A stretch of DNA of 48,862 bases from a virus: positions 1 to 48,862 of the IMG/VR virus record IMGVR_UViG_3300021492_000030. One strand, 5' to 3'. A program made the translations under genes and the position numbers. The notes under the pieces were generated by a model that saw nothing but the letters and a program-made list of their open reading frames with translations, searched no databases and was not told the DNA's origin. Shown here piece after piece: positions 6,196 through 31,803 of this stretch. Each line of letters opens with the position of its first letter. The stretch's first letter is position 1.

Positions 6196-6893
6196 GTAGC
6201 AGACTGCCAGACTTTTTTATCATTGGAGCAAGCCGGTCAGGCACAAACTCATTGAGAGTCATGCTGAACTCAGTGCAGGAGGTACTACCAGCAAAAAAAA
6301 GAGAGATTCACTTTTTTGACAACGACAAGCAGTATTCAAAGGGCTTGAAGCATTATGAGTCATATTTCCCAGAGAGGGAAGCCCACCTGTCATTCGACAC
6401 GACTCCCGGTTATCTCTATTCGGAAAAAGCACCTATGCGAGTCAAGCGAGACATCCCGGAGCAGAGCCATCGCTTCATTGTGTTGCTAAGAAATCCGATA
6501 GACAGGGCATGGTCGAACTACTGGTACTGGAGAGACAAGATACCGAAGTCAGAGCTGTTCAATCCTGAATCAGAGCTTTTGAAAAGAGGTCGTTACATCG
6601 ACTATTTGAAACGATGGTTGAACGTCTTTGACCGGGAATGTTTTAATGTCATCAAGTCTGAAATATTTTTCAGACAACCGGTGGCCGTTGTTAACGTTGT
6701 CCTCCATTATTTTCTTTGGCTGCCGACTCGGATACTGAAGGCTTCTTACTATGACCCGAAAAAAAGCAAGCCGACGGTGAAATCATCTTACCCGAGGCCC
6801 GACAAGAAGACTCTTGATTTTCTCAAAGAATATTACCGAAAGCCTAATGAAGAGTTATATGACTATCTTGGAATAGATTTAGCTTTGGAATAG
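6192..6893 (+). CDS. sulfotransferase (PAPS-dependent family)
   Basis: The 233-residue protein shows both cofactor signatures of cytosolic-type sulfotransferases: the 5'-phosphosulfate loop GASRSGTNS (12-20) and the 3'-phosphate site RNPIDRAWSNY (100-110), with the REIHFF segment between them (about 37-42). It should transfer sulfate from PAPS to a hydroxyl or amine acceptor, probably a sugar. It is translationally coupled to the preceding small gene and sits among early accessory genes, far from the second sulfotransferase at 30645. The acceptor is unknown; PAPS must come from the host. Confidence 0.85.
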   Translation: MSSRLPDFFIIGASRSGTNSLRVMLNSVQEVLPAKKREIHFFDNDKQYSKGLKHYESYFPEREAHLSFDTTPGYLYSEKAPMRVKRDIPEQSHRFIVLLRNPIDRAWSNYWYWRDKIPKSELFNPESELLKRGRYIDYLKRWLNVFDRECFNVIKSEIFFRQPVAVVNVVLHYFLWLPTRILKASYYDPKKSKPTVKSSYPRPDKKTLDFLKEYYRKPNEELYDYLGIDLALE

Positions 6894-12003: not shown

Positions 12004-12591
12004 ATGAAAGTAACAGCAATAATCAGATTCAAACATTCTGCAATTTATCAGGCAAGAAAAGAGCTTGGCTACAGCCAGAAAGAGCTTGCTGAAAAAATCG
12101 GTATCAGTCAGAGCGCGCTTGCGACTTGGGAAAACTTCAGAAGCTGCCCTTCAAAAAAAGACCCGAGGGCTCAGTCACTCTGTCAGATCGTCGGGAAATC
12201 TTACAATGAGCTGTTCCCAGAAGAGTTCAGACAGGCTGTTTACAGAAAGCAGGGCAGGAGCATGGAAGTGGAATTCAAGACGAAGCGGCTGCCGGAATGG
12301 GTTGAAAGGAATCTTTTGTTGCCAGACCCGGAAGAGCAGTATATCTTGAAAGAGAGGAAAGACAAATTAAAAGAATGTATCCAGGAAGCATTGAAATTTC
12401 TTACAGAAAGAGAAAGAAGGGTTTTAATCTTAAAATTCGGGCTTTACGGCAATCCCGTTCACACTCTTGAAGAAATAGGCCGAATGTTCGACCTCTCAAA
12501 AGGGCGCATCTACCAGATAGAAGCCAAAGCCCTGAGAAAGCTGAAACGTCTATCTAGGAAAGAGGCATTAAAAGTAATTTACGAATCCTGA
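12004..12591 (+). CDS. Cro/C1-type HTH fused to sigma70 region 4
   Basis: The 195-residue protein joins two DNA-binding domains. Residues 14-70 form a Cro/C1 HTH (YSQKELAEKIGISQSALATWE). Residues 127-182 match sigma70 region 4 (LTERERRVLILKFGL, TLEEIGRMFDLSKGRIYQIE, KALRKLKR), the part that reads the -35 box and touches the RNA polymerase beta flap. Regions 2 and 3 are absent. It is placed between the accessory and late genes and could redirect host polymerase to late promoters. A plain sigma-like late activator of the ArpU type is the main alternative. Confidence 0.8.
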   Translation: MKVTAIIRFKHSAIYQARKELGYSQKELAEKIGISQSALATWENFRSCPSKKDPRAQSLCQIVGKSYNELFPEEFRQAVYRKQGRSMEVEFKTKRLPEWVERNLLLPDPEEQYILKERKDKLKECIQEALKFLTERERRVLILKFGLYGNPVHTLEEIGRMFDLSKGRIYQIEAKALRKLKRLSRKEALKVIYES

Positions 12592-14983: not shown

Positions 14984-15391
14984 ATGTCTAACAATAAGCT
15001 AAATACAAACAAAGGCGGTAGACCATCAACGTTCAAAGAAGAATACATTGAAGAAACAAGAAAGCTCGCTACTCTCGGCGTCAATGAAGAAGACATCGCA
15101 TGGTTTTTTGGTGTTCATCCAAATACGTTCAAGGGCTGGAAGAGAAGATATCCGCTATTAGTGTCTGCGTTAAAAAAAGGCAAAGCAGACAGAAACGTCA
15201 GTCTGATGAAAGCGATGTTTACGAATGCTGTCAAAAGGCATAACGCATCGGTTCAAATATTCTTGGCCAAGAACTGGCTCGGCATGACAGACCGTCAGGA
15301 GTTGCTGCATACTGGCGATGAGAAAAAGCCAGTGAGGTTGATACTTGAGGATTACAGCAATAACAAAAACAATGCAAACTCAAAGAGCTGA
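14984..15391 (+). CDS. terS: terminase small subunit
   Basis: The 135-residue protein has an N-terminal HTH (about 30-55, LGVNEEDIAWFFGVHPNTFKGW) followed by a helical region with MKAMFTNAV and IFLAKNWLGMTDRQE, typical of small terminases. It should bind the packaging site on viral DNA and regulate the large subunit encoded directly downstream. GAGGGTAATA precedes the ATG. The gene overlaps the large subunit. Confidence 0.85.
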   Translation: MSNNKLNTNKGGRPSTFKEEYIEETRKLATLGVNEEDIAWFFGVHPNTFKGWKRRYPLLVSALKKGKADRNVSLMKAMFTNAVKRHNASVQIFLAKNWLGMTDRQELLHTGDEKKPVRLILEDYSNNKNNANSKS

Positions 15392-16652
15392 ATACAAAGT
15401 AGTCCATCTACTGCCTCATCAAGCGGCAGCCTTAAGAAGCAAGAGCAGGTTTGTCGGAATGATAGGTGGTACAGGGGGCGGTAAGACCTGGCTTATACCG
15501 TGGTGGCTGTTTGCAGAGATACACAAGCATCCAGAGGATGAGTATATTGTCGTGGCTCCGACCTATAAGTTACTCACCAGGACAACTGTCCCTGTGATTA
15601 GAGACGCGTACAGAGATACAGATTTGGAAGGTGAATACAGGCCGAGCTATAACGTTTATTTGCTGCCGACCGGTGGGAGGATATGGTTTGGGACTGCCGA
15701 TAGACCAGAATCACTGGAGGCCGGCCAATACAGAGCAGCATGTCTGGATGAAGCTGGTCAGATGAAGTATATGGCCTGGGTGGCGATTCAAGCACGTCTC
15801 GGCATGAAAGAAGGCAGGGCGCTCCTAACGACCACACCATACGGTCTCAACTGGCTGTATTATGAGTTCTACTTGCGCTGGAAAAAAGGCGACCCGAACT
15901 ACACTGTGATAAACTTCAGTTCGATAGACAACCCGTACTACCCGGCAAAAGAGTTTGAGAGAGCGAAAAAAGACCTGTCAGAAAGACTATTTGATATGAG
16001 GTACAAAGGGTTGTTCAGAAAGATGGAAGGTCTTGTCTATCCGGACTTTGACTCGAACAACGTCGTTGAGGAAGAGTTTGAAATACCGGAAGACTGGCTC
16101 AAGCTCGGTGGCACTGACTTCGGCTATAACAACCCGCATGCAAATCTTAAAGGCGCTCTTTCTCCTGATGATGTGCTGTACATATATGACGAACTCTATG
16201 TCTCTCACATGCTGCTCAAAGACATAGCAAAGCATATGAAAGACATCACTTATTTCGGAGACCCGTCGGGCAAGAGAGAGATTGAAGAGCTCAGGGGCAT
16301 GGGAGTTGACATACACAGCGGCGATAACGACGTTCAGAAAGGCATTGAAGCCGTCAATGCAAGAATAAGAACAAACAGACTCAAAGTGTTCAAGAGCAAG
16401 TGTCCGAATCTGCTTGATGAGATAGAGACGTACCACTATCAGACTGGCACAGAGAAGCCGTACAAAGAGAATGACCATGCTGTTGATGCACTGAGACAGC
16501 TTGTTGTTGCTCTTGACAAGAGAAGGCACAGAGTCGGGAGAGTACATTTCATCGGCATAGACAGAGTCAAGAGAAAAGAAGAAAAAGAGTCTGAGCAAAG
16601 GAAAAAGGAGGTGACACATGTCAGAAAAGGCAAAGTCTACTACCCGTGGTAA
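15372..16652 (+). CDS. terL: terminase large subunit
   Basis: The protein (426 residues from ATG 15372; a TTG at 15345 would add nine) has an ATPase domain with Walker A GGTGGGKT (32-39) and Walker B CLDEA (Asp126, Glu127), then an RNase H-like nuclease domain with three aspartates: Asp249 in GGTDFGYNNP, Asp297 in YFGDPSG and Asp372 in DHAVDAL. It cuts concatemers and pumps DNA into the prohead through the portal encoded next. The start is uncertain because neither site has a strong ribosome-binding sequence and both lie inside the small subunit gene. Confidence 0.93.
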   Translation: MQTQRAEYKVVHLLPHQAAALRSKSRFVGMIGGTGGGKTWLIPWWLFAEIHKHPEDEYIVVAPTYKLLTRTTVPVIRDAYRDTDLEGEYRPSYNVYLLPTGGRIWFGTADRPESLEAGQYRAACLDEAGQMKYMAWVAIQARLGMKEGRALLTTTPYGLNWLYYEFYLRWKKGDPNYTVINFSSIDNPYYPAKEFERAKKDLSERLFDMRYKGLFRKMEGLVYPDFDSNNVVEEEFEIPEDWLKLGGTDFGYNNPHANLKGALSPDDVLYIYDELYVSHMLLKDIAKHMKDITYFGDPSGKREIEELRGMGVDIHSGDNDVQKGIEAVNARIRTNRLKVFKSKCPNLLDEIETYHYQTGTEKPYKENDHAVDALRQLVVALDKRRHRVGRVHFIGIDRVKRKEEKESEQRKKEVTHVRKGKVYYPW

Positions 16653-18075
16653 AAAGAAGCTCGGCAAAGTCCATTACATAAAGACAACGAAGGGGCTTTT
16701 CCCGCTCTCTGTGCTTTACAAAGCAGAGAAGCGCTCTTCTAAACAGCTCAAAGAAGAGCAAAGATTCCTATCGGACAAAGGTCTGAAGCCGCTGCCGTTC
16801 AGTGTTGACGGACTCATGTCACTTCAAGAGAACTGCACGTACTTCGACTCATGCGTCAAGCAGATTGCGAAAGACGTTGTCGGTCAGGGCTGGACTCTTA
16901 CCGAAGCGACAGAAGACGTGAGTGAAGCAGAGCTTGAAGAGCAGAAAAAGAAAGCAAAAGAATTTCTTGAAGACCCGAATGAAGAGGAAGAAGAAGCGAT
17001 TGAAGATATTATTGAGAAGTGCATCATAGATTGGGGCGTCGTAGGCTGGTTTGCAATAGAGGTCAGCAGAGACCCGGTAACGAACGAAGTGAACGGGCTC
17101 TGGCACATCCCGGCACACACGATAAGAGTCCACAAGAGCAAAAAGCTATTCTGTCAGGTGAGGGACGGCAAGTATCGCTGGTTCAAGAAAATCGGCGTTG
17201 AGAAGAACTATGATGCTGACACCGGAGAGCCTGTGACTGGCAAAGCCGGTAAAAATCTGGCGAATGAAATCATCTACTACAAGAACTATTATCCACGCAG
17301 TTCATATTACGGAGCACCGAACATACTGCCGGCTGTCGGAGCGGCGAAAGCGCTCATTGGTGTCAGAGACTACAATCTGTCATTCTTTGAGAACTATGGC
17401 ATCCCGGCCGCTATTGTCACTCTTGAGGGCGATTGGGAAGAAAACTCAGCAAAATATATCAACAATTTTCTCGATGTTCAGATTCGAGGCTCTGACAATG
17501 CTCACAAGACTCTTGTGCTGGAGCTGCCGACCGGCGGCACTCTGACATGGAAGCCGCTCTCGGTCGAAGTAAAAGAAGGCTCATTCACAGTCTATTACAA
17601 GCAGTCAAGAGACGAAATTCTCAGTGCTTATAAGATGCCACCGTACAGGATAGGGCTGGCCGAAACGGGCAGCCTGGGCGGCTCTACTGCAAAAGAAATG
17701 ACACCAATCTACATTAACTCAACAGTTGCACCTTTGCAGAAGGCCGTTAACAGAATCATAACGAAAAGCATCTTGCACAAAGGGCTCAACTGCGAGCATG
17801 TAGACTTTCAGTTCAACAAGATAGACACAAGGGATTTGGATTCAGAAGTGAAACGCTGGCAGATGCTCTTTAGCCTCGGTGCAATCAATGTGAATTACAT
17901 CAGAGACAAGCTGAATCTTGAGAAAGTCGACCACGGTGATGATTATTACATTGCATCGAACTATCTGCCTGTCGGTGAGGAGAGCCTGACAAGAAGAGAA
18001 GCATCGATTGAGGAATTAAACATGAAAGTAAATGAGATAATTGAAGAATATAAAAAATCAAAGAAAGGAGAATGA
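16618..18075 (+). CDS. portal protein
   Basis: The 485-residue protein matches PBSX/HK97-type portals: a long N-terminal arm, LMSLQENCTYFDSCVKQIAKDVVG, the helical segment YYGAPNILPAVGAAKALIG with FFENYGIPAAIV, and MPPYRIGLAETGSLGGST in the crown side. It forms the ring at the capsid vertex that DNA passes through. AAAGGAGGTGACAC precedes the ATG, which overlaps the terminase gene by 35 bases. The C-terminus is acidic and helical. Confidence 0.9.
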   Translation: MSEKAKSTTRGKKKLGKVHYIKTTKGLFPLSVLYKAEKRSSKQLKEEQRFLSDKGLKPLPFSVDGLMSLQENCTYFDSCVKQIAKDVVGQGWTLTEATEDVSEAELEEQKKKAKEFLEDPNEEEEEAIEDIIEKCIIDWGVVGWFAIEVSRDPVTNEVNGLWHIPAHTIRVHKSKKLFCQVRDGKYRWFKKIGVEKNYDADTGEPVTGKAGKNLANEIIYYKNYYPRSSYYGAPNILPAVGAAKALIGVRDYNLSFFENYGIPAAIVTLEGDWEENSAKYINNFLDVQIRGSDNAHKTLVLELPTGGTLTWKPLSVEVKEGSFTVYYKQSRDEILSAYKMPPYRIGLAETGSLGGSTAKEMTPIYINSTVAPLQKAVNRIITKSILHKGLNCEHVDFQFNKIDTRDLDSEVKRWQMLFSLGAINVNYIRDKLNLEKVDHGDDYYIASNYLPVGEESLTRREASIEELNMKVNEIIEEYKKSKKGE

Positions 18076-18378: not shown

Positions 18379-19233
18379 ATGCAGGTGCTGGAGAAGCTGA
18401 GAGACTCGATGAAAGAGATAGTGCAGAAGTCTATCCGGAGAACGTTCATCAACACCAGACGACTCAGGCGATTGAATGAGAGGAAGCTTACACCGAAAGT
18501 TAATGAATTTATGCGATACATGAGAAAGCAGCTGCAGAGAGGCCTGACTCGGGTGAAGGCAAGGAAGCCGTCGACGTTCGCAGAACAACTTGCTGACTGG
18601 GAAGCGGTAGCAGAAGAGGGCAAGCGAATCCTGAAGCCAGCACTGCTGAACATTCTTGCTGAAGGTGGCAAGGCTGTGGTCGAGAGAAGAGTCATCAAAC
18701 AGGAAGCAGAGCCACGCTTCGATATTCTTGGCATCAAGGCAGTCAAATGGGCTGAGAAGCATACAGCGAAGCTTGTGACCGAGGTCATAGAAGAGACAAA
18801 GCAGGCAATCAGACAGGAGATAAAAGCCGGCGTCGACTACGGCAAGAGCATTCAGAAGATTGCAAAAGAGCTGAGACCGATAGTCGGACTCACATCACGT
18901 CAGGCTGGCGCTGTGGCAAAATACAGACGGGTACTGGAAGAGCAGGGACTACCCGAGCAAAAGGTTGCTTCGTTAGTGGAAAGATATGCTAATAAGCTGC
19001 ACAGATTCAGAACTCAGATGATTGCAAGAACAGAGACGGCGGCAGCTCTCAGTGAGGGCACTCTGCAAGGCTTTGAACAGATTGGAGTCAAGAAAGTTCA
19101 AGGCGTAGCAGATGAAGAAGCCTGCGAGTATTGCCTTGAGAACATAGACGGTAAAATATTTACTCTGGATGAAGCGCATGGAGTTATTCCCGCTCATCCT
19201 CAGTGTGAATGTGTATTCGTTGCAGCATCATAA
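18379..19233 (+). CDS. phage head morphogenesis protein, MuF/SPP1 gp7 type
   Basis: The 284-residue protein is helical for about 190 residues, then shows the MuF domain: RFRTQMIARTETAAALSEG, VADEEACEYCLENIDGKIF and HPQCECVFVA. MuF proteins bind the portal, and some are packaged and injected. No extra toxin or enzyme domain is attached here; the enzymatic cargo instead seems to be in the 1100-residue protein three genes downstream. GAAGATG contexts give a weak ribosome-binding site. Confidence 0.88.
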   Translation: MQVLEKLRDSMKEIVQKSIRRTFINTRRLRRLNERKLTPKVNEFMRYMRKQLQRGLTRVKARKPSTFAEQLADWEAVAEEGKRILKPALLNILAEGGKAVVERRVIKQEAEPRFDILGIKAVKWAEKHTAKLVTEVIEETKQAIRQEIKAGVDYGKSIQKIAKELRPIVGLTSRQAGAVAKYRRVLEEQGLPEQKVASLVERYANKLHRFRTQMIARTETAAALSEGTLQGFEQIGVKKVQGVADEEACEYCLENIDGKIFTLDEAHGVIPAHPQCECVFVAAS

Positions 19234-19507: not shown

Positions 19508-19665
19508 TGGTACAGGTAGCTGAGAAGCTGTGTCCGAAATGCAACGGCAGAATGATTATACTGCCGGCGTGTTGTGCTATAAGACGAAAGGGCTTTCGGA
19601 AGATGCTCAAGTGTCCACGCTCCGGGTGCGGGCATAGAGAGGGCTACAAGGAGAGCAAACAATGA
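19507..19665 (+). CDS. 52-residue zinc-ribbon protein
   Basis: The frame starts in an overlap with the previous stop and its own stop overlaps the next start. It encodes CPKC, ACC and CPRSGCG, consistent with a zinc ribbon, in a very basic chain. Tight coupling on both sides supports it being real although it is short. Confidence 0.5.
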   Translation: MVQVAEKLCPKCNGRMIILPACCAIRRKGFRKMLKCPRSGCGHREGYKESKQ

Positions 19666-22600
19666 GAATAGAAGAAATAACAGCAAGCAAACTGAAAGAA
19701 GCGCCAGACAGAGAGCTTTATAGTTTGAGGCTCAGATTCGTGCAGTTATATAACAAGAACTTCAAGGGCAACAGAAACACAAGAGTCGGCACATTGACCA
19801 GAAGTGATTTTCTGAAGAAGTACAAGCTACTGATGAACGAAATGAAAAACAGAGGCCTGTCAACAAGCAAAGTTACTGACATAGATGTTGAAGTGTTCAG
19901 AAAAGCAATGTTCGGCGGTCTCGATGTCAGTACTCTTGGAGATATTGTCATCGTGGAGAATTATCTCTCAATCGCTGGTTCGTTCGTCAAGTCCCCGACC
20001 GAAGCGAATGACATTGACATCATAGTCAGAGATAGCTCATCGAACAGAGACGAAGGCCTTGAGCTCAAAGTCGGAAGGCTCATAGAGAAAGAGACTGAGA
20101 AGCTGCCTCACTTCGTCTATTCACCGAGAGGGCCGCACAGCTCATATATTCCGCTGTTCGACCTGGTGCTGAGAAGCAAAGAAGAGACAAAGAGAGTGAA
20201 AGTCAGAGAGAGCAAGAAAGTAGAGAAGCAGTCCGAACTTAAACTAACTCTGATAGGGACCGGAGCACTCGATTCACCGAGAAAAGATGAATGCTTACTT
20301 GTTGAATACCAGGGCCAGAGGATACTCATCGATGCAGGTCCGGATATACAACCAAAGGATGTTGGAGAGCTGACTGATATTTTAGTCTGTGACCCTGAGT
20401 CGGATTTCATGAAAGATGCCAGAAGACTGGGAGAAAAGTATGGGATTGAGCCGGGAGTGAAGAGCATATCAGAAGATGGGCTGAAAATAACTCCATTCAA
20501 AGTAAAGCATACTTCCCATGATACCTATGGCTATAAAATTGAAGCTGACAATAAAACCATAATTTATGCTCCAGAATTCTTTGAATTCCCCACAAGGCAG
20601 GTTAAGAATGCGGATATTGCTATACTTGAAGGTTCGGCATGGTCAAAGCCGATAGTATTCACAGGCAAAACCGGAGGCCATGCAGCCGTTCTTGATAGCT
20701 GGGAAAAAGCTAAAGAGGCGAACGTGGATAGGATAATCTTCACCCACATAGGAAAGACCACCGAGGCACATCTCAAAGATGCAGAAGAAATGGGTATAGA
20801 GATAGGCCATGATGGTCAGGTGATAATACCGAAAGCAAAGGTTAAAAAGAAAGCCATAACTCTCGGTCGGCCTTTTACTCCGTTAAAATCCAGAGGGGGT
20901 TATGGCACTTATGAGTTTGCTGATATCGAAGCTCTTTGGACAACGTGGGCTCAGGGCTATATCCCGGAACCTGGCGTTGCTGTTGAGGTGAAATATGACG
21001 GCTTCAGAGTCCAAGTGCATAAGAAAGATGATACAGTCAGAATTTTTTCAGAAGATGCAAAGAGGGATTTAAGCCCCAGGCTTGAAGACGTAGTCAAAGA
21101 AATTAAAACCATCAAACAAAACTGCATTCTTGATGGTGAGCTTCTTATCTATGTTAATAACAAGAAAGTGGAAAGAAGAGATATGCCCAGCTATCTGATG
21201 GCAAAAGAACCGGAAGAGTTCAAGGCTGAAATTGAAGTGTTTGACTGTTTGTATTTTGATGATAGGGCTCTGAATGAATTGCCTTGGGAAGAGAGGCAGA
21301 AATATTTAGACAAAATATTTTCAGGCGTTGATGAGCTGCTTTTACATAGAGTGAAGCCGATAATAGCCAAGACGAAAGACAGGTTCTTTGCAGCTGTGAA
21401 GAAGTGCTCGTCAGTAGAGCATTCTGAAGGAGCGATGCTCAAGGTTGTCAATTCAAAGTATCCGCTTGATGGCAAAACATCGGAGTGGGCAAAATTCAAA
21501 AACTTCAAAGAGCTCAGAGTCAAAATTATTGATAAGGAAACAAAGAAAGGCGGCGGCTATATCTACACATGCGCTCTTAGAAATAACATTCCGATAGGAC
21601 GGACCTATGCAACAAAGATTGATGCGAAGGTTGGAGATGTTCTTGAGGTGGCGGTTGCTGAAGTACTTTACAACGAAGAAGAAGACAGGTTCAGTTGGGA
21701 CAATCCGATTGTGCGCTCTAAGAAGCCAGCCGGCACTGCGCTGACAACCAAAGAACAGGCTAAGGCTTTGGCCAAGCTGAGAAGGACAAAAGCGATGTAT
21801 ATATGCGAATGTCTACAATGCGGTTATAGTATCGAATCAGATGAACACTGTAGAGAAATAAAATGCCCGAAATGTGGCGGTGAAATGAGAAGGCTAGAAC
21901 GCCCCGGACCTGGCTATGTAGAGAAAGAAGAAATCGGTAATATCAGTTTTAAAGAGGGCGATTCTGGCACGGGCGTTGCTCAGATTCATATTATGGGCTT
22001 GGGGGAAGGGGAAGTAGACAAGTTGAGAGAAGAGAGTAATCGGCTAATGATGGCAAGAGCCGATATTGGTAAACTCAGAACAACTCTTCTTCAAAGCATC
22101 GGCAACCATGGTGCTCATATTGACATCAGACTCCGGAGAGATAAAGAGAATTCCTGGCAGGGCTGTGAAATCTTCATTGGCAACATCGAAGGCCTTCTAA
22201 AGCTCAAAGAGCTACAAACCGGTAAGAAAAAGCTCAGAGCACCGTGGAAACAGAGCAGGGCTGGGGAGCCGGAGACAGAAGTGGTACGTGGCCCTCTTGG
22301 CTGGATGGAAGCAGGTGCTAGGAAAGTGGAATTCTTCAAACCGGGGACTCCAGGAGCGACCGCCAACAAGTGGGGTGCAATCATTCGGATAGACACTTTC
22401 AACTGGCTTCTCTACTATTCTGAGGAACATGCCAAGAAGTTCCATATCACAGACTCACGTTTCTTTGAGGGCAACTGGCTATTTGCCTTCGTGCCTGTCG
22501 GTGAGAAAGAAAGGGTCTGGATGATGAGCAAGCTTAAAGATGACGACCATGAGAAGGAGCAAAGCAAAGAGCCTGCGGAGAAGTCAATGATGTTCAAGAT

Positions 22601-22964
22601 TTACAAGCTGAACAAAAGAAAGCACCTTGTCGGAGGCGTTGTCTATGAACCGGAGACAGTAGACGCACAGGGTGACTATACAGATGCAGAAGAGATAGAG
22701 AAAGCGATAGAGCGGTTCATGGAGAAGTATGCAAAAGACCCGAAAAGAATCAGAGTTAATCATCAGGGCAGAGCATATTATTTCCCGATTATAGAGTGTT
22801 TTCAGCCAGAGACAGACATCAAGAAAGGTGGCAAAACTGTCAAAGCCGGTAGCTGGTGGCTCATGGTTAAAGTTACAGATGACAGCATCTGGCAGCTTGT
22901 AGAATCAGGCAAGTTGACAGGCTTCTCTATGGGTGGCAGAGCAAGTGAAGCTAAAGAGCCTTGA
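19662..22964 (+). CDS. polyvalent head protein: nucleotidyltransferase, MBL fold, DNA ligase, XkdF protease
   Basis: This 1100-residue protein strings together: a helical start; a nucleotidyltransferase-like part (about 76-170, NDIDIIVRD and SPRGPHSSYIPLFD); a metallo-beta-lactamase-fold part (193-390, ILIDAG, HTSHDTYGYKI, IIFTHIG) lacking a recognisable HxHxDH motif; an ATP-dependent DNA ligase (425-690) with the adenylation motif KYDG at Lys444, DGE at 491-493, EGAMLK and WAKFK, then an OB fold; a zinc ribbon (715-738); a LigD phosphoesterase-like region (800-955, HIDIRLRRD); and an XkdF-type prohead protease (975-1097, GVVYEPETVDAQGDYT, GFSMGGRA). It lies between the MuF and scaffold genes. 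It is likely built into the prohead and may be cut into parts; the enzymes could act on DNA in the head or after injection. Polyvalent packaged proteins are known; this exact order is not known to me. Confidence 0.8.
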   Translation: MRIEEITASKLKEAPDRELYSLRLRFVQLYNKNFKGNRNTRVGTLTRSDFLKKYKLLMNEMKNRGLSTSKVTDIDVEVFRKAMFGGLDVSTLGDIVIVENYLSIAGSFVKSPTEANDIDIIVRDSSSNRDEGLELKVGRLIEKETEKLPHFVYSPRGPHSSYIPLFDLVLRSKEETKRVKVRESKKVEKQSELKLTLIGTGALDSPRKDECLLVEYQGQRILIDAGPDIQPKDVGELTDILVCDPESDFMKDARRLGEKYGIEPGVKSISEDGLKITPFKVKHTSHDTYGYKIEADNKTIIYAPEFFEFPTRQVKNADIAILEGSAWSKPIVFTGKTGGHAAVLDSWEKAKEANVDRIIFTHIGKTTEAHLKDAEEMGIEIGHDGQVIIPKAKVKKKAITLGRPFTPLKSRGGYGTYEFADIEALWTTWAQGYIPEPGVAVEVKYDGFRVQVHKKDDTVRIFSEDAKRDLSPRLEDVVKEIKTIKQNCILDGELLIYVNNKKVERRDMPSYLMAKEPEEFKAEIEVFDCLYFDDRALNELPWEERQKYLDKIFSGVDELLLHRVKPIIAKTKDRFFAAVKKCSSVEHSEGAMLKVVNSKYPLDGKTSEWAKFKNFKELRVKIIDKETKKGGGYIYTCALRNNIPIGRTYATKIDAKVGDVLEVAVAEVLYNEEEDRFSWDNPIVRSKKPAGTALTTKEQAKALAKLRRTKAMYICECLQCGYSIESDEHCREIKCPKCGGEMRRLERPGPGYVEKEEIGNISFKEGDSGTGVAQIHIMGLGEGEVDKLREESNRLMMARADIGKLRTTLLQSIGNHGAHIDIRLRRDKENSWQGCEIFIGNIEGLLKLKELQTGKKKLRAPWKQSRAGEPETEVVRGPLGWMEAGARKVEFFKPGTPGATANKWGAIIRIDTFNWLLYYSEEHAKKFHITDSRFFEGNWLFAFVPVGEKERVWMMSKLKDDDHEKEQSKEPAEKSMMFKIYKLNKRKHLVGGVVYEPETVDAQGDYTDAEEIEKAIERFMEKYAKDPKRIRVNHQGRAYYFPIIECFQPETDIKKGGKTVKAGSWWLMVKVTDDSIWQLVESGKLTGFSMGGRASEAKEP

Positions 22965-23148: not shown

Positions 23149-23175
23149 TTGACGGGAGGTCTAAGAGAGAAGACC

Positions 23176-23925
23176 ATGCCACGTAAATTGAAAGACATCG
23201 ATGTGGCAGAAATCTCACTTGTGGATAATGCTGCCAATCGAAAAAAATTTTATATTGTCAAAAGGAGAAGGCAAATGGATGAATTCATCAAACTTCTGAA
23301 ATCTTTTATGGGTGAAGATGATGATGGGTTTAAGTTGAGTGAGGAGGATATTGCAAAGGCCGAAAAGCTTGATGAGAAAGCAATCAAAGCTATTCAGGGC
23401 GCTTTGAATATCCTGAACAAGTACAAAGATGTGTACCCGAATGATGTGCTGACTGCAATCAAAACGCTGACAAAGTACGCTGCATACGGCTACAGTTACC
23501 CTGCGAAAAAGTCTTTGACTGAAGAAGAGCTGATTGAAGAGCTGACTGATGTGGAGAAAGCCGGACGCAAGCTGTCAAAAGCAACAATCGAGCAGCTGAA
23601 GAAAGCAATGGAGATTATACAGAGCTTAATTGAAGAGAAAGAAGAAGACATCACGAAAGGTCATAAGCTTCCACCTGAAATTGTCAAAAAGCTGGAGAAG
23701 CTGGCCGAGTACGAAAAAGCAGAGAAAGAGAGAATCGAGAAAGAGCGAATTGAGAAAGAGAAGAAACAGGAAGAACTTATCAAAGAGCTCAAAGAGAGAA
23801 TAGAAAAGCTTGAGAAAAGCAAGGGCATCAAGAAAAGCATAGACGGTCAGGACGACGACGACGATGACAAAGACAAAAACAAAGGGGTAAAGTGGCCTTC
23901 ACTCATTTCTTCACAGGAGGACTAA
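23176..23925 (+). CDS. scaffold-like protein with protease-tail remnant
   Basis: The protein (249 residues from ATG 23176) starts with VAEISLVDNAANRKKFYIVK, the segment that normally ends XkdF-type prohead proteases. The rest is helical and very charged, with coiled coil around 170-225 (EKERIEKERIEKEKK) and an Asp-rich stretch before a short basic tail, as in capsid scaffolds. It directly precedes the major capsid gene. It is inferred to guide capsid assembly and be degraded by the protease domain encoded upstream. Confidence 0.7.
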   Translation: MPRKLKDIDVAEISLVDNAANRKKFYIVKRRRQMDEFIKLLKSFMGEDDDGFKLSEEDIAKAEKLDEKAIKAIQGALNILNKYKDVYPNDVLTAIKTLTKYAAYGYSYPAKKSLTEEELIEELTDVEKAGRKLSKATIEQLKKAMEIIQSLIEEKEEDITKGHKLPPEIVKKLEKLAEYEKAEKERIEKERIEKEKKQEELIKELKERIEKLEKSKGIKKSIDGQDDDDDDKDKNKGVKWPSLISSQED

Positions 23926-23928
23926 ACA

Positions 23929-25068
23929 ATGAAAAGCACAAAGGATTTACTCAGCCGGTTTAAAATCGGCAAGAGTTTCAACCTTATTTCTATGCCGACT
24001 ATATCTTTGACTGAAGAAGAAGCAGACAGATTCATCGACTACATCGTAGATGAGTCAGTGATGAAGAATTATGCTCGAATTGAGAAGATGACCAGACCGC
24101 AGAAAAACATCAGAGCTATCGGTTTCGGTTCCGGACGCTTTCTGTACCCAGCTGACAACTTCAATGAGAGCAAATACAAAAAACAGTGGGCTCAAAACAA
24201 GATTCAGCTGAGCACAAAGAAAGCACGTGGCGCTATAGCCGTTTTTGATGACGACCTTGAAGATATCAGAGCAATATCGAATGAAGATGATTACATGGAC
24301 CATCTCATGAAAATCGTTGCAAAGAAGATTGCCAACGAACTTGAAGAAGCCTACTACATCGGTGACACTCATGGCCTCAATGGCTTCGCAGCTGATGACA
24401 TTCGCAGCATGTGGGATGGCTGGCGCTACATCATCAATCACAGTCAGCCCGGTCAGCAGTACTATAACGAAGTTACTGGCGGCGCTCACATCAAAGATGC
24501 CTGCCTCTGTGAGAGTGGCGCTTCGTGTCCGAGCGGTAAATCAGACCCGGATGCTGAGTTCAGATTTCCCGGCTTGATTGCCGAGCAAGACCCGAATCCG
24601 CCTTACAACTGGGAGTTCAAATATCATCAGATGCTGAAGAATATGCCATCCAAGTACAAGCTGAACAATGGGCTTGCCAATATGGTGTTCATGAATTCTG
24701 ACCTTGTGACTCAGGACTATATTGAGGCTCTGAGCCAGAGAGGCACAGCCCTGGGAGATGCGATTTTCACGGGCAAGGCACCGACCACTTACGGCAAAGT
24801 TCCCATCGTTGATGTTCCGCTCATGCCTACGAATCTCGGTCAAGATGCCGACGGTACTTACGGCTTAGTTGGCGGTGGCGAATACACCGATGTACTGCTC
24901 ACACCGAAGAACAATCTGATAATCGGGCTACAGAGAGACATCAAAATCGAGACCCAGCGTGTACCCGCAGATGAAGCGACTTATGTCTTCTACTCAATCA
25001 GAAGTGATGTGACTATTGAGAATGTAAATGCTGTTGTGTTCTTAAGATGCCTTGAACACAGATGCTAG
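23929..25068 (+). CDS. major capsid protein (HK97 fold, PBSX type)
   Basis: The 379-residue protein is placed directly behind the scaffold with CACAGGAGG upstream, and its sequence fits HK97-fold capsids of the PBSX type: an N-terminal arm, long spine-helix region (DYMDHLMKIVAKKIANELEEAYYIGD), a VFMNSDLVTQDYIEAL segment, GKVPIVDVPLMPTNLG, and a C-terminal strand set with DVLLTPKNNLIIGLQRDIKIETQR. A cysteine-containing insertion (ACLCESGASC) sits near residue 190. About 400 copies per virion are expected from the family. Confidence 0.88.
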   Translation: MKSTKDLLSRFKIGKSFNLISMPTISLTEEEADRFIDYIVDESVMKNYARIEKMTRPQKNIRAIGFGSGRFLYPADNFNESKYKKQWAQNKIQLSTKKARGAIAVFDDDLEDIRAISNEDDYMDHLMKIVAKKIANELEEAYYIGDTHGLNGFAADDIRSMWDGWRYIINHSQPGQQYYNEVTGGAHIKDACLCESGASCPSGKSDPDAEFRFPGLIAEQDPNPPYNWEFKYHQMLKNMPSKYKLNNGLANMVFMNSDLVTQDYIEALSQRGTALGDAIFTGKAPTTYGKVPIVDVPLMPTNLGQDADGTYGLVGGGEYTDVLLTPKNNLIIGLQRDIKIETQRVPADEATYVFYSIRSDVTIENVNAVVFLRCLEHRC

Positions 25069-26215: not shown

Positions 26216-26845
26216 ATGGGCAACTATGTGGTTGACTCAGACATAAGCTCATGGCCTTCGGGTTGCGATGCTGACTGCAAGAGTAAAATAATTGATTTTG
26301 CTGAACAGCTTATTGAAAAAATCACCGGCACTCATTTCTATGAAAAAGCCTTTGATATCAAGGTCAACGGCAACAACAAAAACAGAATCTTCCTGCCGCT
26401 TCATGCGAATATCATCAGTGTTTCGGCCGTCTATGTCTGCGGCTATGAGCTAGACCCAACCTGGTACGGCTTTGACGAAAGCTCAGTGTATCTTGACCTG
26501 TGCAAGTCGGGCGTTGCTCTGTCAGAGTATTACTACGTTCTTACTCAGGAGACAGAAGAAGGGCTGTTTCCGAGAGGGTATAACAACATCAGAATAGTCG
26601 GCACTTACGGCTATAGCACTGTACCGGAGCCGATAAAGAAGGCGGTCATCTACCTGATTGATGCAATCAATGATGGCTCATTCTCAGCAGCCGGAATGTT
26701 TGAGAGCGAGAAGATAGGCGACTACTCTTATAAAATCGGCATAGAAGGCTATTCTAAAAAAGGCATCTATACAGGCATACCAAAAGTTGATGTCATTCTG
26801 AGAGCGTACATGAAACAAAAAAAACCTGTTCTTCAAACACCATGA
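26216..26845 (+). CDS. head-tail connector protein (gp6/YqbG-like)
   Basis: The 209-residue protein fits head-tail connector adaptors: an acidic N-terminus with AEQLIEKITGTHFYEK, a beta block (NRIFLPLHANIISVSAVYVCGY), RIVGTYGYSTVPEPIKKAVIYLI, and a helical end. This family sits below the portal ring. The ATG follows GGGAGTGTTAT. Its stop overlaps the first gene of the glycan cassette (ATGA). Confidence 0.75.
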   Translation: MGNYVVDSDISSWPSGCDADCKSKIIDFAEQLIEKITGTHFYEKAFDIKVNGNNKNRIFLPLHANIISVSAVYVCGYELDPTWYGFDESSVYLDLCKSGVALSEYYYVLTQETEEGLFPRGYNNIRIVGTYGYSTVPEPIKKAVIYLIDAINDGSFSAAGMFESEKIGDYSYKIGIEGYSKKGIYTGIPKVDVILRAYMKQKKPVLQTP

Positions 26846-27546
26846 TTTCAGCAGAGAAAGCAACTCTTTTCAGAAGCGATAAGTTTGTCAACCGTTTTCT
26901 CTGGGAAGTTCTACCTGACGGCTCCTGGAAGAATAAGCCGTGCTTCATCATCGGAGGTGGCCCGAGCTTGAAAGACTTTGACTGGTCTCTTCTCAAAGGC
27001 AAAAGAACAATCGGCATCAACAGAGCTTTTGAGAAATTCGAGCCAACGATAATGTTCTCGATGGATATGCGCTACTTGAAATGGGTGCTGAATGACAAGT
27101 ATGGCGACGCAGTCAGGGACAGGTTTTTCTCGCTTCGTTCTTACCGGGTCTGGCTCTGTACATATACTGTGAAGCTTCCGGATTATATCTACATAGTCAA
27201 AGTCTATAAGCACTATAGAGCGGGACTCAGGGCGTTCACAAATAGCCTGAAGGACGGCATCGGTCACGGCAACAACTCTGGCTATGCAGCTCTGAACATT
27301 GCGGCCTGTCTCGGGGCTAATCCGATATATCTGCTGGGCTTTGACTGCAAGTTCAACAACGGCAGAACGCACTGGCATGAGGGGCATCCTGTACCGCAGT
27401 CAGAAAAAGTAGTAAACGACTTTGTAAGATTCTTTGAGAAAGCGGCCCCTATCATCAGGGCGATGGGAATCAAAGTCATCAATCTGTGTCCGGAGTCTGC
27501 TCTAAACTGCTTTGAAAAAAAACCGATTAGCGAGGTGCTGCATTGA
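26842..27546 (+). CDS. DUF115/MAF-like glycosyltransferase-family protein
   Basis: The 234-residue protein contains CFIIGGGPSLKDFDWSLLKGK, GINRAFEKFEPTIMFSMD and NIAACLGANPIYLLGFDCKF, the pattern of DUF115 and motility-accessory-factor-like proteins and of some sialyltransferase-like enzymes. The Gly-rich start likely binds a nucleotide sugar. It is the first of nine coupled genes inserted between connector genes, and likely adds a sugar to a protein or glycan. Confidence 0.7.
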   Translation: MISAEKATLFRSDKFVNRFLWEVLPDGSWKNKPCFIIGGGPSLKDFDWSLLKGKRTIGINRAFEKFEPTIMFSMDMRYLKWVLNDKYGDAVRDRFFSLRSYRVWLCTYTVKLPDYIYIVKVYKHYRAGLRAFTNSLKDGIGHGNNSGYAALNIAACLGANPIYLLGFDCKFNNGRTHWHEGHPVPQSEKVVNDFVRFFEKAAPIIRAMGIKVINLCPESALNCFEKKPISEVLH

Positions 27547-27893
27547 AAACTCAGGGCAAGGTCTGGGGTCAGACAACTGAATTTTTCAGAAACGGTATAG
27601 TTTCTGCTCACCATCTACACATTAACAAAGGCGGCTACTGCTCAGAGCACAGACATGAACATAAATACAACGTATTCTATGTAATTTCGGGCAAGCTGAA
27701 AATAACAATCTGGCAATCTGACAAGCTGAAGGATGTGACCGTCTTGAGAGACGGGCAGGTCAGCGCAGTACCTCCCGGTCTCTGGCACTGCTTCGAAGCG
27801 CTTGAAGATTCAGAAGTTATAGAGATTTATCAGGTGCTGCTGATTGACCCGGACATTGAGAGAAGAACCCACGGAGGTCTGAAAAAGAGATGA
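27543..27893 (+). CDS. cupin-fold protein, mannose-6-phosphate-isomerase-like
   Basis: The 116-residue protein uses a TTG start that overlaps the previous stop. It has the cupin metal motif EHRHEHKYNVFYVISGKL and the second motif VPPGLWHCFEALEDSEVIEIYQ, as in the cupin half of type II phosphomannose isomerases and similar sugar enzymes. It probably modifies or isomerises a sugar precursor for the neighbouring transferases. Confidence 0.8.
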   Translation: MKTQGKVWGQTTEFFRNGIVSAHHLHINKGGYCSEHRHEHKYNVFYVISGKLKITIWQSDKLKDVTVLRDGQVSAVPPGLWHCFEALEDSEVIEIYQVLLIDPDIERRTHGGLKKR

Positions 27894-28768
27894 AGCTGAC
27901 AATCTTCTCACGCACACCGCTGGCAGCTGCACCGTGGGAGCTTTATAAAGCGCTAAAAAAATATACTGACTTAGATGTATCTCTTATTAACCAGGTTTAC
28001 CGTTATCCTGACGGGAGAGTGTTCCCGTACCATCTGTTGCTTAATATGAACGGCACAGCATCTGTTGCTCTAAAAAAAGCAGACCTCTGGCACATCAACA
28101 ACTACTGGCACAGAGACCTGAACTCATTGCGCAGTTCTCAAAAAGTGCTTGCTCAGTTTCATTCAGTACCACGTCTGGGCAACTGGCGTGAATTGATGCA
28201 ACGTGCAGATGCTTGCTATACAATCAGTCAGCCGTTGCAGGAGAAAGAATATAAGCTGCCGTCCCTGCCGAATGTGATTGACCCGGATGAATACAGACCG
28301 ATTCGCAGGTCATCCACCATCCGCATAGCTTTTGCACCGACAACAAAGCTGCCAGTCAATCATGTCAGCAGCAAGGGCTACTATGAGGTGAAGAAGGTGC
28401 TTGACGAAGTTGCCAGAGAAAGAGCAGTTGAGATTGTCTGGATTGAAGGCAAAGACTACAGAGAGAATCTCAAACTGAAGCAGAGCTGTCACATCCTCAT
28501 CGACGATGTGGTCACGGGCAACTGGCATCGCACTTCACTTGAGGGCGCTTGCTTTGCCTGCGCAGTGCTGAACAGAGTGAAGAAAGTGCCGTTTGTGTTT
28601 GCAAACTTAGAGAATCTAAAAGAAAAATTGTTACAGCTGATAGATTCACCGGCAATGCTTGCTGATATACAAGAAAGAACAAGACTCTGGGTTCTTCAGA
28701 ACTATCATGCCATCGATACCGTGAAGAAATACGTTCGGGCTTATCGGAGGCTTGCCGATGCACGTTAG
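27890..28768 (+). CDS. GT-B type glycosyltransferase
   Basis: The 292-residue protein has two Rossmann-like halves: an N-terminal acceptor side with ADLWHINNYWH and AQFHSVPRLGNW, the junction YTISQPLQ and LPNVIDPDEYRPI, and a C-terminal half with IRIAFAPTTKL, HILIDDVVTGNWHRTSLEGACF and a closing helix set. This is the layout of GT4-like enzymes. It overlaps both neighbours. Donor and acceptor are unknown. Confidence 0.7.
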   Translation: MKLTIFSRTPLAAAPWELYKALKKYTDLDVSLINQVYRYPDGRVFPYHLLLNMNGTASVALKKADLWHINNYWHRDLNSLRSSQKVLAQFHSVPRLGNWRELMQRADACYTISQPLQEKEYKLPSLPNVIDPDEYRPIRRSSTIRIAFAPTTKLPVNHVSSKGYYEVKKVLDEVARERAVEIVWIEGKDYRENLKLKQSCHILIDDVVTGNWHRTSLEGACFACAVLNRVKKVPFVFANLENLKEKLLQLIDSPAMLADIQERTRLWVLQNYHAIDTVKKYVRAYRRLADAR

Positions 28769-29444
28769 CATTTTGATAAGTACATTCGACAGAGTAGATA
28801 CATTGAGAGCAACTATCCAGAGTCTCAGAGCTTCGAGTTATAAAAATCTGTCTGTGTTCGTAGCGGTAGATGGGAATGACCGTATTCTGTTAGATGTTGC
28901 CAGGCTTCCTGTCTGCTTGATTTACAACAAGAATAGAAAAGATTTTGTCATGTCGATGAATACTCTCCTGCAGTATGCTCGGAGCGATGCCGTGCTCTAT
29001 GCTTCAGATGACTTAATCTTTGAGAAAGATTGTATTGAAAAAGCCGTGAAGATGTTGAAGGAGAAGTTCCCGGACACGGACGGTCTCATCGGTATCAAGC
29101 AGGATATCAAGGGCTGTTCTTCAGCATTCGGACTCATGGGCAGAAAATTCATCGAAAGATTTCCGCATCGCTGCGTCTTCTGTCCAGACTTCATTCATTA
29201 TTCAAGCGATTTTGAGCTTGGCAGATTCGCAAGGAATGTCAATAAATGGGGCTACTGCGAGTCAGCGCTTGTACATCACAGACGGTTAAGAGACACAACC
29301 TGGCAGATTGCTCACAAGGTGAGAGACAGAGACTTTGAGACAATGAAACTGAGAAGAGAGAAACATCTGTTCTGGGGGCATAACTTTGAACTTGTGACTG
29401 AAATCGGTCAGAAACGACTCAAAGCGCTTGGAGAGCTGGCATGA
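28758..29444 (+). CDS. GT2-family glycosyltransferase
   Basis: The 228-residue protein starts at ATG 28758 behind CGGAGG. It opens with the GT-A signature VSILISTFDRVDTLRATIQSL, VFVAVDGND and has YASDDLIFEKD as the metal-binding Asp motif, then HYSSDFELGR. It should transfer a sugar from a nucleotide donor. It overlaps the previous gene by 11 bases. Confidence 0.8.
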   Translation: MHVSILISTFDRVDTLRATIQSLRASSYKNLSVFVAVDGNDRILLDVARLPVCLIYNKNRKDFVMSMNTLLQYARSDAVLYASDDLIFEKDCIEKAVKMLKEKFPDTDGLIGIKQDIKGCSSAFGLMGRKFIERFPHRCVFCPDFIHYSSDFELGRFARNVNKWGYCESALVHHRRLRDTTWQIAHKVRDRDFETMKLRREKHLFWGHNFELVTEIGQKRLKALGELA

Positions 29445-30256
29445 GCGAAATAGCTTATCTTCCGGAGTTCGACGGGCAGCGATACTATGACACTCACTAT
29501 AAATTTGTCATTGAGCTGATGAAAGCGGCTGGTATTGAAGTGAAACTCTACCATGACAAACGAAAAGGCAGAGGCTTCGTCATGCGCTACAAGGACAAAA
29601 GAGTCCTCATTGACTTCGGTGACCATCTCACTGTGGCTGATGACTATTCGAACTTCGATGCTCAATTCAGGTTTCACTATTCATACAAAAGACACAAAGA
29701 ACTAAGAAATACATTCCCGTTGACACCGATAAGCTTCTACGACTGGGATGAGTACTTCAACCTTCAAAGAGTGCTCAGATACAATGCAGATGGCATGATT
29801 CTCAGCAATCAGAGACCGGGGGCTGCTGCTCTCAAAAGAAGAAAATTTGTTCAGTACAGGCTCATTGACTGGTTCGGCGGTCAGGTCGACACTTCATTCA
29901 CAGACAAGAGAACGTTCTGGAAAAAAGTCAACAGGTGCTTGGTCTCTGTCTGTGTGCCGGGAGCGAGAAACGACATCTTAGATAGAGGTCAGTTTCAGTA
30001 CATGGCATTCGGCGCTTGCACAATCTCACCACCTCTTGATATAGTGCTGCCGTACTGGACAGAGCTCAAGCCGGGTGAACATTATATCGCTTGCAGAGAA
30101 GATTATTCAGACATTCTCAATGTCATTGAAAGCTGTATCAATGACAGAGAGAAATGCCTCAGAGTCGGCTCTCAGGCAAAACGATTGTTCCTGAGCTGCT
30201 GCACTCCGAGTAGAGTCGTCGAATGGCTCAACCACTGTCTGGAGAATTTAGAATGA
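29441..30256 (+). CDS. glycosyltransferase-like protein, CgeB-type C-terminus
   Basis: The 271-residue protein has a Rossmann-like N-terminal half (KRVLIDFGDHL) and a C-terminal part with FQYMAFGACTISPPLD, LKPGEHYIACREDYSDILNVIESCI and a final Arg-containing helix, as in CgeB and group 1 glycosyltransferases. The ATG overlaps the previous stop. Confidence 0.6.
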   Translation: MSEIAYLPEFDGQRYYDTHYKFVIELMKAAGIEVKLYHDKRKGRGFVMRYKDKRVLIDFGDHLTVADDYSNFDAQFRFHYSYKRHKELRNTFPLTPISFYDWDEYFNLQRVLRYNADGMILSNQRPGAAALKRRKFVQYRLIDWFGGQVDTSFTDKRTFWKKVNRCLVSVCVPGARNDILDRGQFQYMAFGACTISPPLDIVLPYWTELKPGEHYIACREDYSDILNVIESCINDREKCLRVGSQAKRLFLSCCTPSRVVEWLNHCLENLE

Positions 30257-30648
30257 AAGTCACAGAAAAATTAGAAGCCATAAAGAAAAAAGTATTCGGA
30301 AGAAAAAAACTTATACTTGAATCTACAAAGAACGACATTAAAGACAGAGCTTTGGTTCTTACTGAAGCAGACAGGAGCATCAGTGCACTTATCTCTTTCG
30401 GCGCTCTCAGCAGAATGCTCAACTACAGACAGGGTATAAGAGAGTACGCAAGGGTGATGAAAAAATCTGCTATCGGGGCGATAGCCGTCTGGGTCAAGAG
30501 ACACTTCGACTTCAGAGGCACTCAGTACTATCTCCCGGAAAAAACGTTTAAAGCTGAGCTTGAGAGGTTTTTCATCATAAAGAGCGAGACAGTTCTTATA
30601 TCTGACAAAAATAGAAAGTTCATAGTCTATGAGGTTAGAAAGAAATGA
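30253..30648 (+). CDS. short protein, possible methyltransferase fragment
   Basis: The 131-residue protein starts at ATG 30253 in an ATGA overlap. The middle (FGALSRMLNYRQGIREYARVMKKSAIGAIAVWVKR) resembles the region of class I methyltransferases after the catalytic motif, and the end looks like the last beta hairpin (FIVYEVRKK), but the cofactor loop is missing. It may be a truncated methyltransferase or an unrelated accessory protein. Confidence 0.45.
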   Translation: MKVTEKLEAIKKKVFGRKKLILESTKNDIKDRALVLTEADRSISALISFGALSRMLNYRQGIREYARVMKKSAIGAIAVWVKRHFDFRGTQYYLPEKTFKAELERFFIIKSETVLISDKNRKFIVYEVRKK

Positions 30649-31301
30649 AGGTGATAATTTGCGGGATGCATCGCTCGGGCACTTCAATGATTGCTGGCTT
30701 GCTCGAGCTCTGCGGTCTGTATCTCGGCAACAATTTGCTCTCTGGACTGAGTGACAACCCGAAGGGTCATTTTGAAGACAGAGAGTTTCTCTCACTGAAC
30801 AGGCAGCTGCTCAGAGCGGGCGGTTCAACATGGCATCAGAATCTTCCGTTCAAGCTCACCACAGTGCCAAAGCCATTACTCGCTAAAATGAAGCTTTTTG
30901 TATCAAAATGGCCTGCAGATAGAGTCGTTGGCTGGAAAGACCCGAGAGCATGTCTTACTCTACCGCTCTGGCGGCAGGTCATTGAGCCCGAACCGCTCAG
31001 AGTTGTCCTTATATTCAGACCGTATATTGAGATTGCAATGAGTTTGAAAAAACGCAACCGCTTTGCTTTAGAGAAAGGAATCTGGCTGTGTGACTATTAC
31101 TGCCGGACTGCTGAACAGAATGTCAAAGACATCCCTCATATAGTTACTTACTATCACAAATATTTCTCAGACTGGCAAAGTGAACTGGCAAGAGTTGCTG
31201 AATTCTTAGGGCTCTCGATTCCTGACAATAGAGCGGCGATTGAAAAGTTTATCGATGTTTCACTCTGGCATCATCGGGAGAGATTCAATGAATACAGCTA
31301 G
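30645..31301 (+). CDS. sulfotransferase-family protein
   Basis: The 218-residue protein has the PAPS loop GMHRSGTS (7-14), the GHFED segment, WKDPRACLTLPLW (about 97-109) and VVLIFRPYIEIAMSL (120-134) as the 3'-phosphate side. It belongs to a different sulfotransferase subgroup from the one encoded at 6192. In the glycan cassette it probably sulfates a sugar. Starts in an ATGA overlap. Confidence 0.8.
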   Translation: MKVIICGMHRSGTSMIAGLLELCGLYLGNNLLSGLSDNPKGHFEDREFLSLNRQLLRAGGSTWHQNLPFKLTTVPKPLLAKMKLFVSKWPADRVVGWKDPRACLTLPLWRQVIEPEPLRVVLIFRPYIEIAMSLKKRNRFALEKGIWLCDYYCRTAEQNVKDIPHIVTYYHKYFSDWQSELARVAEFLGLSIPDNRAAIEKFIDVSLWHHRERFNEYS

Positions 31302-31803
31302 AGCAAGACAAGCGTTCGCTGCTGTGCCGGACTTGCTGGACTATGAGACTCTGCTATATATCGGTGCAAGTATAGCAAGAAATGAGATGCTGTCTTATTT
31401 CTTAGAGAAAGAGTACAAAGTCACTATCCTTGAAGTCTGGACAGAGAACGTACTGTACTACAAACAAGACCCGAGATTCAGCATCATTCAGGCTGATGTC
31501 AGAAATGTGGGTAAGTTTCCGCTCGGTCAATTCGATGTAGTAATGTGGTGGCATGGGCCCGAGCATGTGGAGAGAGAAGCGCTGCCGAGAGTGCTCAATG
31601 AGCTGTTCAAACATACTAACAAAGTTCTCATGCTCGCTTGTCCGTGGGGCAGATATGAACAGGGCGCAGTAAGAGGCAATCCGTATGAAGAGCACAAAAG
31701 CCATCTTGATGAAGGATTCTTCAGAGAGCTGAGCTTCAACACTTCTACGCTCGGGAGAAAAAACGTCAGAGGCTCGAACCTATTGGCATGGAAAAGAAAA
31801 TGA
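31288..31803 (+). CDS. class I SAM-dependent methyltransferase
   Basis: The 171-residue protein (ATG 31288 behind GGGAGA) has the SAM loop LLYIGASIARN, the acidic end of strand 2 (VTILEVW), QADVRNVGKF and the catalytic-side strand DVVMWWHGPEHVER, followed by helix and strand with KVLMLACPWG. It may methylate a sugar or protein. It overlaps the sulfotransferase gene by 14 bases. Confidence 0.75.
   Translation: MNTARARQAFAAVPDLLDYETLLYIGASIARNEMLSYFLEKEYKVTILEVWTENVLYYKQDPRFSIIQADVRNVGKFPLGQFDVVMWWHGPEHVEREALPRVLNELFKHTNKVLMLACPWGRYEQGAVRGNPYEEHKSHLDEGFFRELSFNTSTLGRKNVRGSNLLAWKRK

Follow-up and report, generated by a model that had tools for sequence, protein, structure and literature searches.

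A viral protein that joins a DNA ligase and a LigD-type phosphoesterase-like domain to a prohead protease

Results

A fusion protein in the head operon

The window analyzed here is a stretch of virus DNA of 48,862 nt (IMGVR_UViG_3300021492_000030), and all results were computed from sequence. We find that a single open frame on the plus strand of the window (19662–22964) encodes a protein of 1100 aa, P0001, in which a nucleotidyltransferase-like region, a metallo-β-lactamase (MBL) fold, an ATP-dependent DNA ligase, a zinc ribbon and a LigD-type 3′-phosphoesterase domain precede an XkdF prohead protease. A preliminary description of this DNA had noted such a multi-domain fusion in the head operon, and this is confirmed: it is one frame, located between the MuF and capsid genes, and AAGGAGAG, a good ribosome-binding site, is found six bases upstream of its ATG. 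The parts of the protein are as follows.

19662..22964 (+): fusion protein P0001, 1100 aa; single frame with ribosome-binding site, full-length homologues in IMG/VR
19662..20234 (+): N-terminal region, residues 1–191, helical at 1–64 and with a Pol-beta-like nucleotidyltransferase at ~95–175; 28-sequence alignment, DNA_pol_B_palm in 2/28
20235..20846 (+): MBL-fold domain, residues 192–395, without HxHxDH; PF12706 E 3e-9, motif inspection
20847..21761 (+): ATP-dependent ligase, residues 396–700, with adenylation and OB-like domains and Lys444; PF01068 E 3e-28
21795..21896 (+): zinc ribbon, residues 712–745, CxxC...CPKC; weak ribbon-family matches, sequence read directly
21924..22547 (+): LigD-type 3′-phosphoesterase, residues 755–962, with Q774, H776, H819, D821 and R823; AF2 model, VIA-align, invariant residues
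22548..22592 (+): linker, residues 963–977, of variable length, with a zinc-finger-like insert in the relatives L002 and L005; alignment, domain table
22593..22949 (+): XkdF (Peptidase_S78_2) prohead protease, residues 978–1096, with conserved H1034 and S1089; PF14550 E 8e-26

In IMG/VR and GTDB genomes, ~30 further contigs with relatives of the protein were found. When the same domain order was looked for among these metagenomic phages, as the preliminary description had proposed, ligase, phosphoesterase and XkdF were found in one open reading frame (ORF) in at least 24 other contigs, among which are two near-identical pairs, and in five of which the N-terminal part forms a separate ORF. Since the same fusion recurs in all of these, and in many metagenomes, an assembly error is ruled out as its source.

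Ligase domain

The ligase domain matches PF01068 at residues 438–613 (Pfam), and its top matches are archaeal and LigD-type DNA ligases. Lys444 had been assigned to the KYDG motif of an ATP-dependent ligase, and it does sit there, in KYDGFR; none of motifs I, Ia, III, IIIa, IV and V is missing (KYDG in I, DGEL in III, FDCLY in IIIa, SEGAM in IV and WAKFK in V). This first type of ligase, shared by the window, L002, L004, L008 and L050, has motifs I–V complete, as does L058 except for one stretch. In a second type, found in ~20 relatives, motif I reads KLN and no member has the Glu of motif III; a third (L041, L053) has KFSG and keeps the motif III Glu. The best-scoring matches of both main types are DNA ligases, including those of LigD type, and identity of the second type as an RNA ligase is thus unsupported.

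LigD-type phosphoesterase domain

Residues 755–962 have no match in Pfam. A search for PF13298, the LigD phosphoesterase family, was likewise empty in four related records, and profile–profile comparison of the domain with this family gave a probability of 2%. The LigD likeness, which had been seen by eye, is nevertheless borne out by the predicted structure. An AF2 model built from a 24-sequence alignment (pLDDT 91.7) shows the eight-stranded barrel fold of the LigD phosphoesterase, and the top six rows among 998 chains aligned to it by VIA-align are bacterial and archaeal LigD 3′-phosphoesterases (Z 9.8–13.8, root-mean-square deviation 2.1–4.5, 117–124 residues, 18–20% identity), the next row having a Z of 4.4. 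This structure match rules out a chance reading, though hidden Markov model and profile searches miss the domain. Foldseek alone returned nothing at E 0.001 against the PDB, nor did it against the viral library, and as its E-values fall below significance, the assignment rests on the second aligner together with the motifs.

In the strand that opens the structural match, Q774 and H776 pair with Gln40 and His42 of LigD. A helical insert of ~35 residues follows, and then H819-x-D821-x-R823, which corresponds to His48, Asp50 and Arg52; this pairing was made from the HxDxR motif and the range of the alignment (model 14 to chain 34) rather than from inspected coordinates. All five counterparts are invariant in the 24 sequences. 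In the LigD phosphoesterase His42, His48 and Asp50 coordinate manganese, while Arg52, His84 and Tyr88 hold a phosphate mimic (PMC8656161).

Ligase and phosphoesterase together bear on the possibility that the protein is an RNA-repair kit, for instance for tRNAs cut by host anticodon nucleases, similar to Pnkp-Hen1 or ligase-RlaP and with the methyltransferase variant described below acting as Hen1. Pol-beta nucleotidyltransferases are found alongside RNA ligases in jumbo phages (PMC7824862), a small methyltransferase lies beside the ligase in most relatives, and the RNA_ligase model of Pfam scores the window protein slightly under its cut-off. However, DNA ligases, those of LigD type among them, are the best matches of both main ligase types, the phosphoesterase has the fold of LigD, a DNA 3′-end enzyme, one relative (L052) carries DNA methylases as cargo, and Pfam scans revealed no polynucleotide kinase domain, why we consider RNA repair to be quite unlikely.

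Nucleotidyltransferase, lactamase-fold and zinc-ribbon parts

For the remaining domains the preliminary description holds in part. The N-terminus is plausibly nucleotidyltransferase-like, as it carries the pattern GSFV...DIDI...FDLVLR of Pol-beta nucleotidyltransferases in the 28-sequence alignment, and DNA_pol_B_palm (PF14792) matches 2 of the 28 relatives (best E 4e-6). Its model is too poor to confirm this (pLDDT 68.6), matching chiefly short helical hairpins of ribosomal proteins, and is uninformative on nucleotidyltransferase identity. The CxxC pairs of the zinc ribbon are visible in the sequence (~716–719 and 734–737) but are weakly scored, by several ribbon families. The MBL domain was identified correctly as to its fold, with Lactamase_B_2 (PF12706) matching residues 272–363, but its metal motif HxHxDH is replaced in both intact copies examined, by CDPESDF in the window and CDEKKHY in L008. 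The domain is therefore probably inactive, and an Artemis-like nuclease is ruled out. Closely related copies in L002 (7661–7830) and L058 (2661–3100) have their frame broken within the degenerate lactamase domain by deletions that differ between the two, so that the domain may be dispensable or the deletions may be assembly faults.

Such degeneration could extend further, in that the enzyme domains might largely have decayed into nucleic-acid-binding or structural filler, as in an internal core protein. Besides the MBL domain, the second ligase type without its motif III Glu points in this direction, as do relatives that have only the nucleotidyltransferase and the protease, one of which (L055) has altered DxD residues. 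We find this improbable, and more so than RNA repair, since the window ligase keeps every motif, the metal residues of the phosphoesterase are invariant, and both of these domains are under strong purifying selection. For every domain pair where it could be computed dN/dS was 0.02–0.14 (Nei–Gojobori), and all tested domains are under purifying selection.

Exchange of modules among relatives

The commonest variant of the fusion combines a methyltransferase with the second ligase type. The lactamase domain accompanies the first ligase type in the window, L002, L008 and L058, a methyltransferase accompanies the third in L041 and L053, and L004 and L050 have a ligase with neither lactamase nor methyltransferase. 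A further variant is that of L052 (6001–12414, 2137 aa), in which three tandem Dam-like D12 N6-adenine DNA methylases with repeated linkers between them are found together with methyltransferase, ligase, phosphoesterase and XkdF. Reduced forms are also seen: in L055 and L057 the fusion has neither ligase nor phosphoesterase, and that of L051 is without the ligase core. In L051 (6001–7251) we also note, by eye, an ADP-ribosyltransferase-like region after the nucleotidyltransferase, for which there is no Pfam match. A 133-kb virus contig, L031 (4861–7320), encodes a protein consisting of C2H2 finger, nucleotidyltransferase and ligase without XkdF, a few genes upstream of a capsid gene.

When the window protein was compared with those of L003, L011, L023 and L033 in blocks of 40 residues, identity was ~71–98% over residues 1–200, ~12–49% over 201–720, ~51–68% over 721–920 and ~85–100% over 921–1100, linker differences aside. 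As the middle differs while both ends keep an identity of ~90% among close relatives, the cargo is swapped between constant ends.

As to hosts, a gene in the window (12004–12591) encodes a helix-turn-helix regulator whose C-terminal part resembles a sigma factor (phrog_351, E 4e-19), which points to a bacterial host. L058 was binned as Pacearchaeota, which is weak evidence of its host because of this sigma-factor-like gene in the window.

XkdF protease and its surroundings

An XkdF protease in the head operon had also been proposed, and both the domain (PF14550 at residues 978–1096, E 8e-26) and its place directly before the scaffold and capsid genes bear this out. H1034 and S1089 are invariant in the family alignment and are also found in unfused XkdF proteins. 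The gene order is that of a standard head operon, with a small ORF of 86 residues between the MuF gene and the fusion:

14984..15391 (+): terminase small subunit (TerS); phrog_309 E 3e-18
15345..16652 (+): terminase large subunit (TerL); phrog_2 E 7e-40
16618..18075 (+): portal protein; phrog_12 E 4e-47
18379..19233 (+): MuF-like head morphogenesis protein; phrog_3517 E 1e-24
23149..23925 (+): scaffold-like ORF in which the N-terminal XkdF motif EISLVDNAAN is retained; phrog_3017 positions 1–42, comparison with unfused XkdF
23929..25068 (+): major capsid protein candidate; phrog_1623 virion structural protein E 2e-48

The surroundings are similar in L041, where a portal gene and a gene of the same capsid family flank the fusion, and in L026, with MuF and that capsid family. 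In the 12 records searched XkdF occurs exactly once per record, always within the family protein, and no second XkdF-family prohead protease was found elsewhere in these 12 records, why the fused XkdF is presumably the working prohead protease.

On one point the preliminary description needs correction: the scaffold part that is usually joined to XkdF is here a separate downstream ORF. The XkdF proteins of Dulem virus 37 and Lactococcus phage 28201 have VSxVDKAAN at their start and also carry additional scaffold-like sequence within the one chain, and in the window a motif of this type opens the downstream ORF, not the fusion. A comparable split of protease and scaffold is found in Rhizobium phage RHph_TM16. 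Many XkdF genes are labeled "DNA methyltransferase", among them M5a_00150 of Klebsiella phage VLCpiM5a (L071, 2261–2887), in which Pfam finds XkdF only; the label is not borne out for that protein, the Lactococcus one reads as plain XkdF, and the name looks like annotation carry-over.

The position of the gene is also what could be expected if the enzymes act in the producing cell or at packaging, sealing nicks and cleaning ends during head filling, with the fusion merely positioning them at the procapsid and no injection taking place. We regard this as the main rival explanation. Besides the late head-operon position, it would account for the finding of a single ATP-dependent ligase in each of 11 records searched and for the separate, unrelated stand-alone ligase encoded in the one record in which the fusion is without its ligase core, as if the fusion were the general phage ligase. 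On the other hand, fusion to the protease would pull a replication ligase into closed proheads, and for polyvalent proteins whose genes lie among those of the virion, delivery to the host is assumed (PMC5512222). We therefore hold action in the producing cell to be unlikely, though less so than RNA repair.

Other genes in the window

Between the head-completion and tail genes, the structural operon contains a block (26842–32729) of glycosyltransferases, a weak sulfotransferase match, a methyltransferase and an MptE-like protein, from which glycosylation of the virion is possible. A clear sulfotransferase gene is found at 6192–6893 (PF00685, E 5e-15), and a viral RNase HII at 5269–5817 (PF01351, E 3e-16), whose listed start may be too late.

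Discussion

We suggest, with slightly better than even confidence, that in P0001 a tailed virus has a packaged polyvalent protein, by which protease-borne end-repair enzymes would be packaged, released and delivered with the DNA. The C-terminal XkdF, the sole prohead protease found, would bring the attached enzymes, along with the scaffold, into the prohead, because a prohead protease, judging from its known role, must be inside it. At maturation the protease would cut the scaffold and probably its own linker too, leaving the N-terminal enzyme set in the head, and at infection the enzymes would go in with the DNA and act on DNA ends. There the phosphoesterase could convert 3′-phosphates or 3′-ribonucleotides to 3′-OH, the nucleotidyltransferase may add nucleotides and the ligase would seal, so that the incoming genome is circularized or breaks made by host nucleases are mended. 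End processing of incoming DNA appears to be the most economical use of the cargo, and the exchange of cargo and the presence of other DNA enzymes in it, such as the D12 methylases of L052, fit the polyvalent theme. The link of the fusion to the virion, proposed earlier, is strengthened by the sole XkdF, the position in the head operon and the precedent of polyvalent proteins (PMC5512222).

The reading as an end-joining kit, put forward in the preliminary description, agrees with the list of domains and the likeness to LigD, but several observations weigh against it. Ku (PF02735) was not found in 17 virus records, which are possibly fragments. The MBL domain has lost its metal motif, and in the commoner ligase type the Glu of motif III is absent throughout. 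In the phosphoesterase the positions of His84 and Tyr88 seem to be Gly and Trp (H-P-L-D-Y vs. G-P-L-x-W, then PGxxGA, in the motif alignment), and because of these apparent replacements its chemistry may differ from that of LigD. Finally, the architecture can do without the kit, as shown by L055 and L057, without ligase and phosphoesterase, and by L051, without the ligase core. As no Ku was found, the bridging of ends would have to be supplied by the host, by cohesive ends or by the protein itself. The more specific proposal of a Ku-independent, virion-delivered end-joining machine that is freed by self-cleavage and has interchangeable ligase modules matched to hosts or defenses is one we make tentatively, and believe to be somewhat less than evenly probable.

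If true, these viruses protect or circularize their incoming DNA with enzymes carried in the head and tied to a protein that is obligatory in every prohead, and end joining would extend from a borrowed host LigD to a viral kit. Fusion to the protease could then also be a natural route for loading enzymes into capsids, and module swapping would provide a ready set of variants in which ligase and partner can be compared against host or defense.

Comparison with known systems

Bacterial LigD (PMC8656161) shares with the fusion a 3′-phosphoesterase and an ATP-dependent ligase in one chain, together with a candidate polymerase-type nucleotidyltransferase. The fusion differs in domain order, in the large helical insert of the phosphoesterase, in the viral protease, in that no Ku was found, and in that its N-terminal part is Pol-beta-like and not PrimPol, for which neither Pfam nor NCBIfam gave a match in the fusion. 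The ligase of the ANMV-1 virus (AJP62006.1, KP703175) has the same order of nucleotidyltransferase, ligase and OB and lies directly after the portal gene, but no XkdF was detected in it and it is far more diverged; its short phosphoesterase-like match aligned 21 residues with LigD, which is not significant, and no IMG/VR relatives of this protein were found.

On the protease side, the XkdF (Peptidase_S78_2) of PBSX-like phages has the same domain with conserved His and Ser and the same position before the capsid gene. It is usually ~200–400 aa and often includes a scaffold part of its own, whereas in the fusion it comes after 960 enzyme residues and the scaffold is a separate ORF. Gp18 of Arthrobacter phage LiSara also has a phosphoesterase N-terminal to XkdF in one chain, but this is of the 2H/LigT family, and the protein has 373 aa and no ligase.

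Mycobacteriophages Omega and Corndog, according to Pitcher 2006 as cited in PMC7719229, bring Ku and use the host LigD to circularize their genome. If our reading is true, the window virus would likewise use an end-joining pathway for genome circularization, but whereas those phages borrow LigD, this one brings LigD-like enzymes, with no Ku detected.

The closest likeness in kind is to the packaged polyvalent proteins, which the preliminary description had rightly called known (PMC5512222). Some of these have C-terminal assemblin-like peptidases, and their processing is thought to occur during virion assembly. Like them, the fusion is a large chain of many unrelated enzyme domains encoded among virion genes, with a C-terminal maturation peptidase, mosaic cargo and DNA methylases; the zincin peptidase typical of the class was not found in the window fusion. 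Its XkdF stands where this subtype has the assemblin-like peptidase, whose fold it may share, and XkdF has been called unrelated to another prohead peptidase family (PMC7824862). The main text of PMC5512222, by word counts, makes no mention of LigD or end joining. Measured against the open-licence literature, and with an earlier description being possible, what is new here is the LigD-like end-healing-and-sealing cargo in a protein of an already known polyvalent kind.

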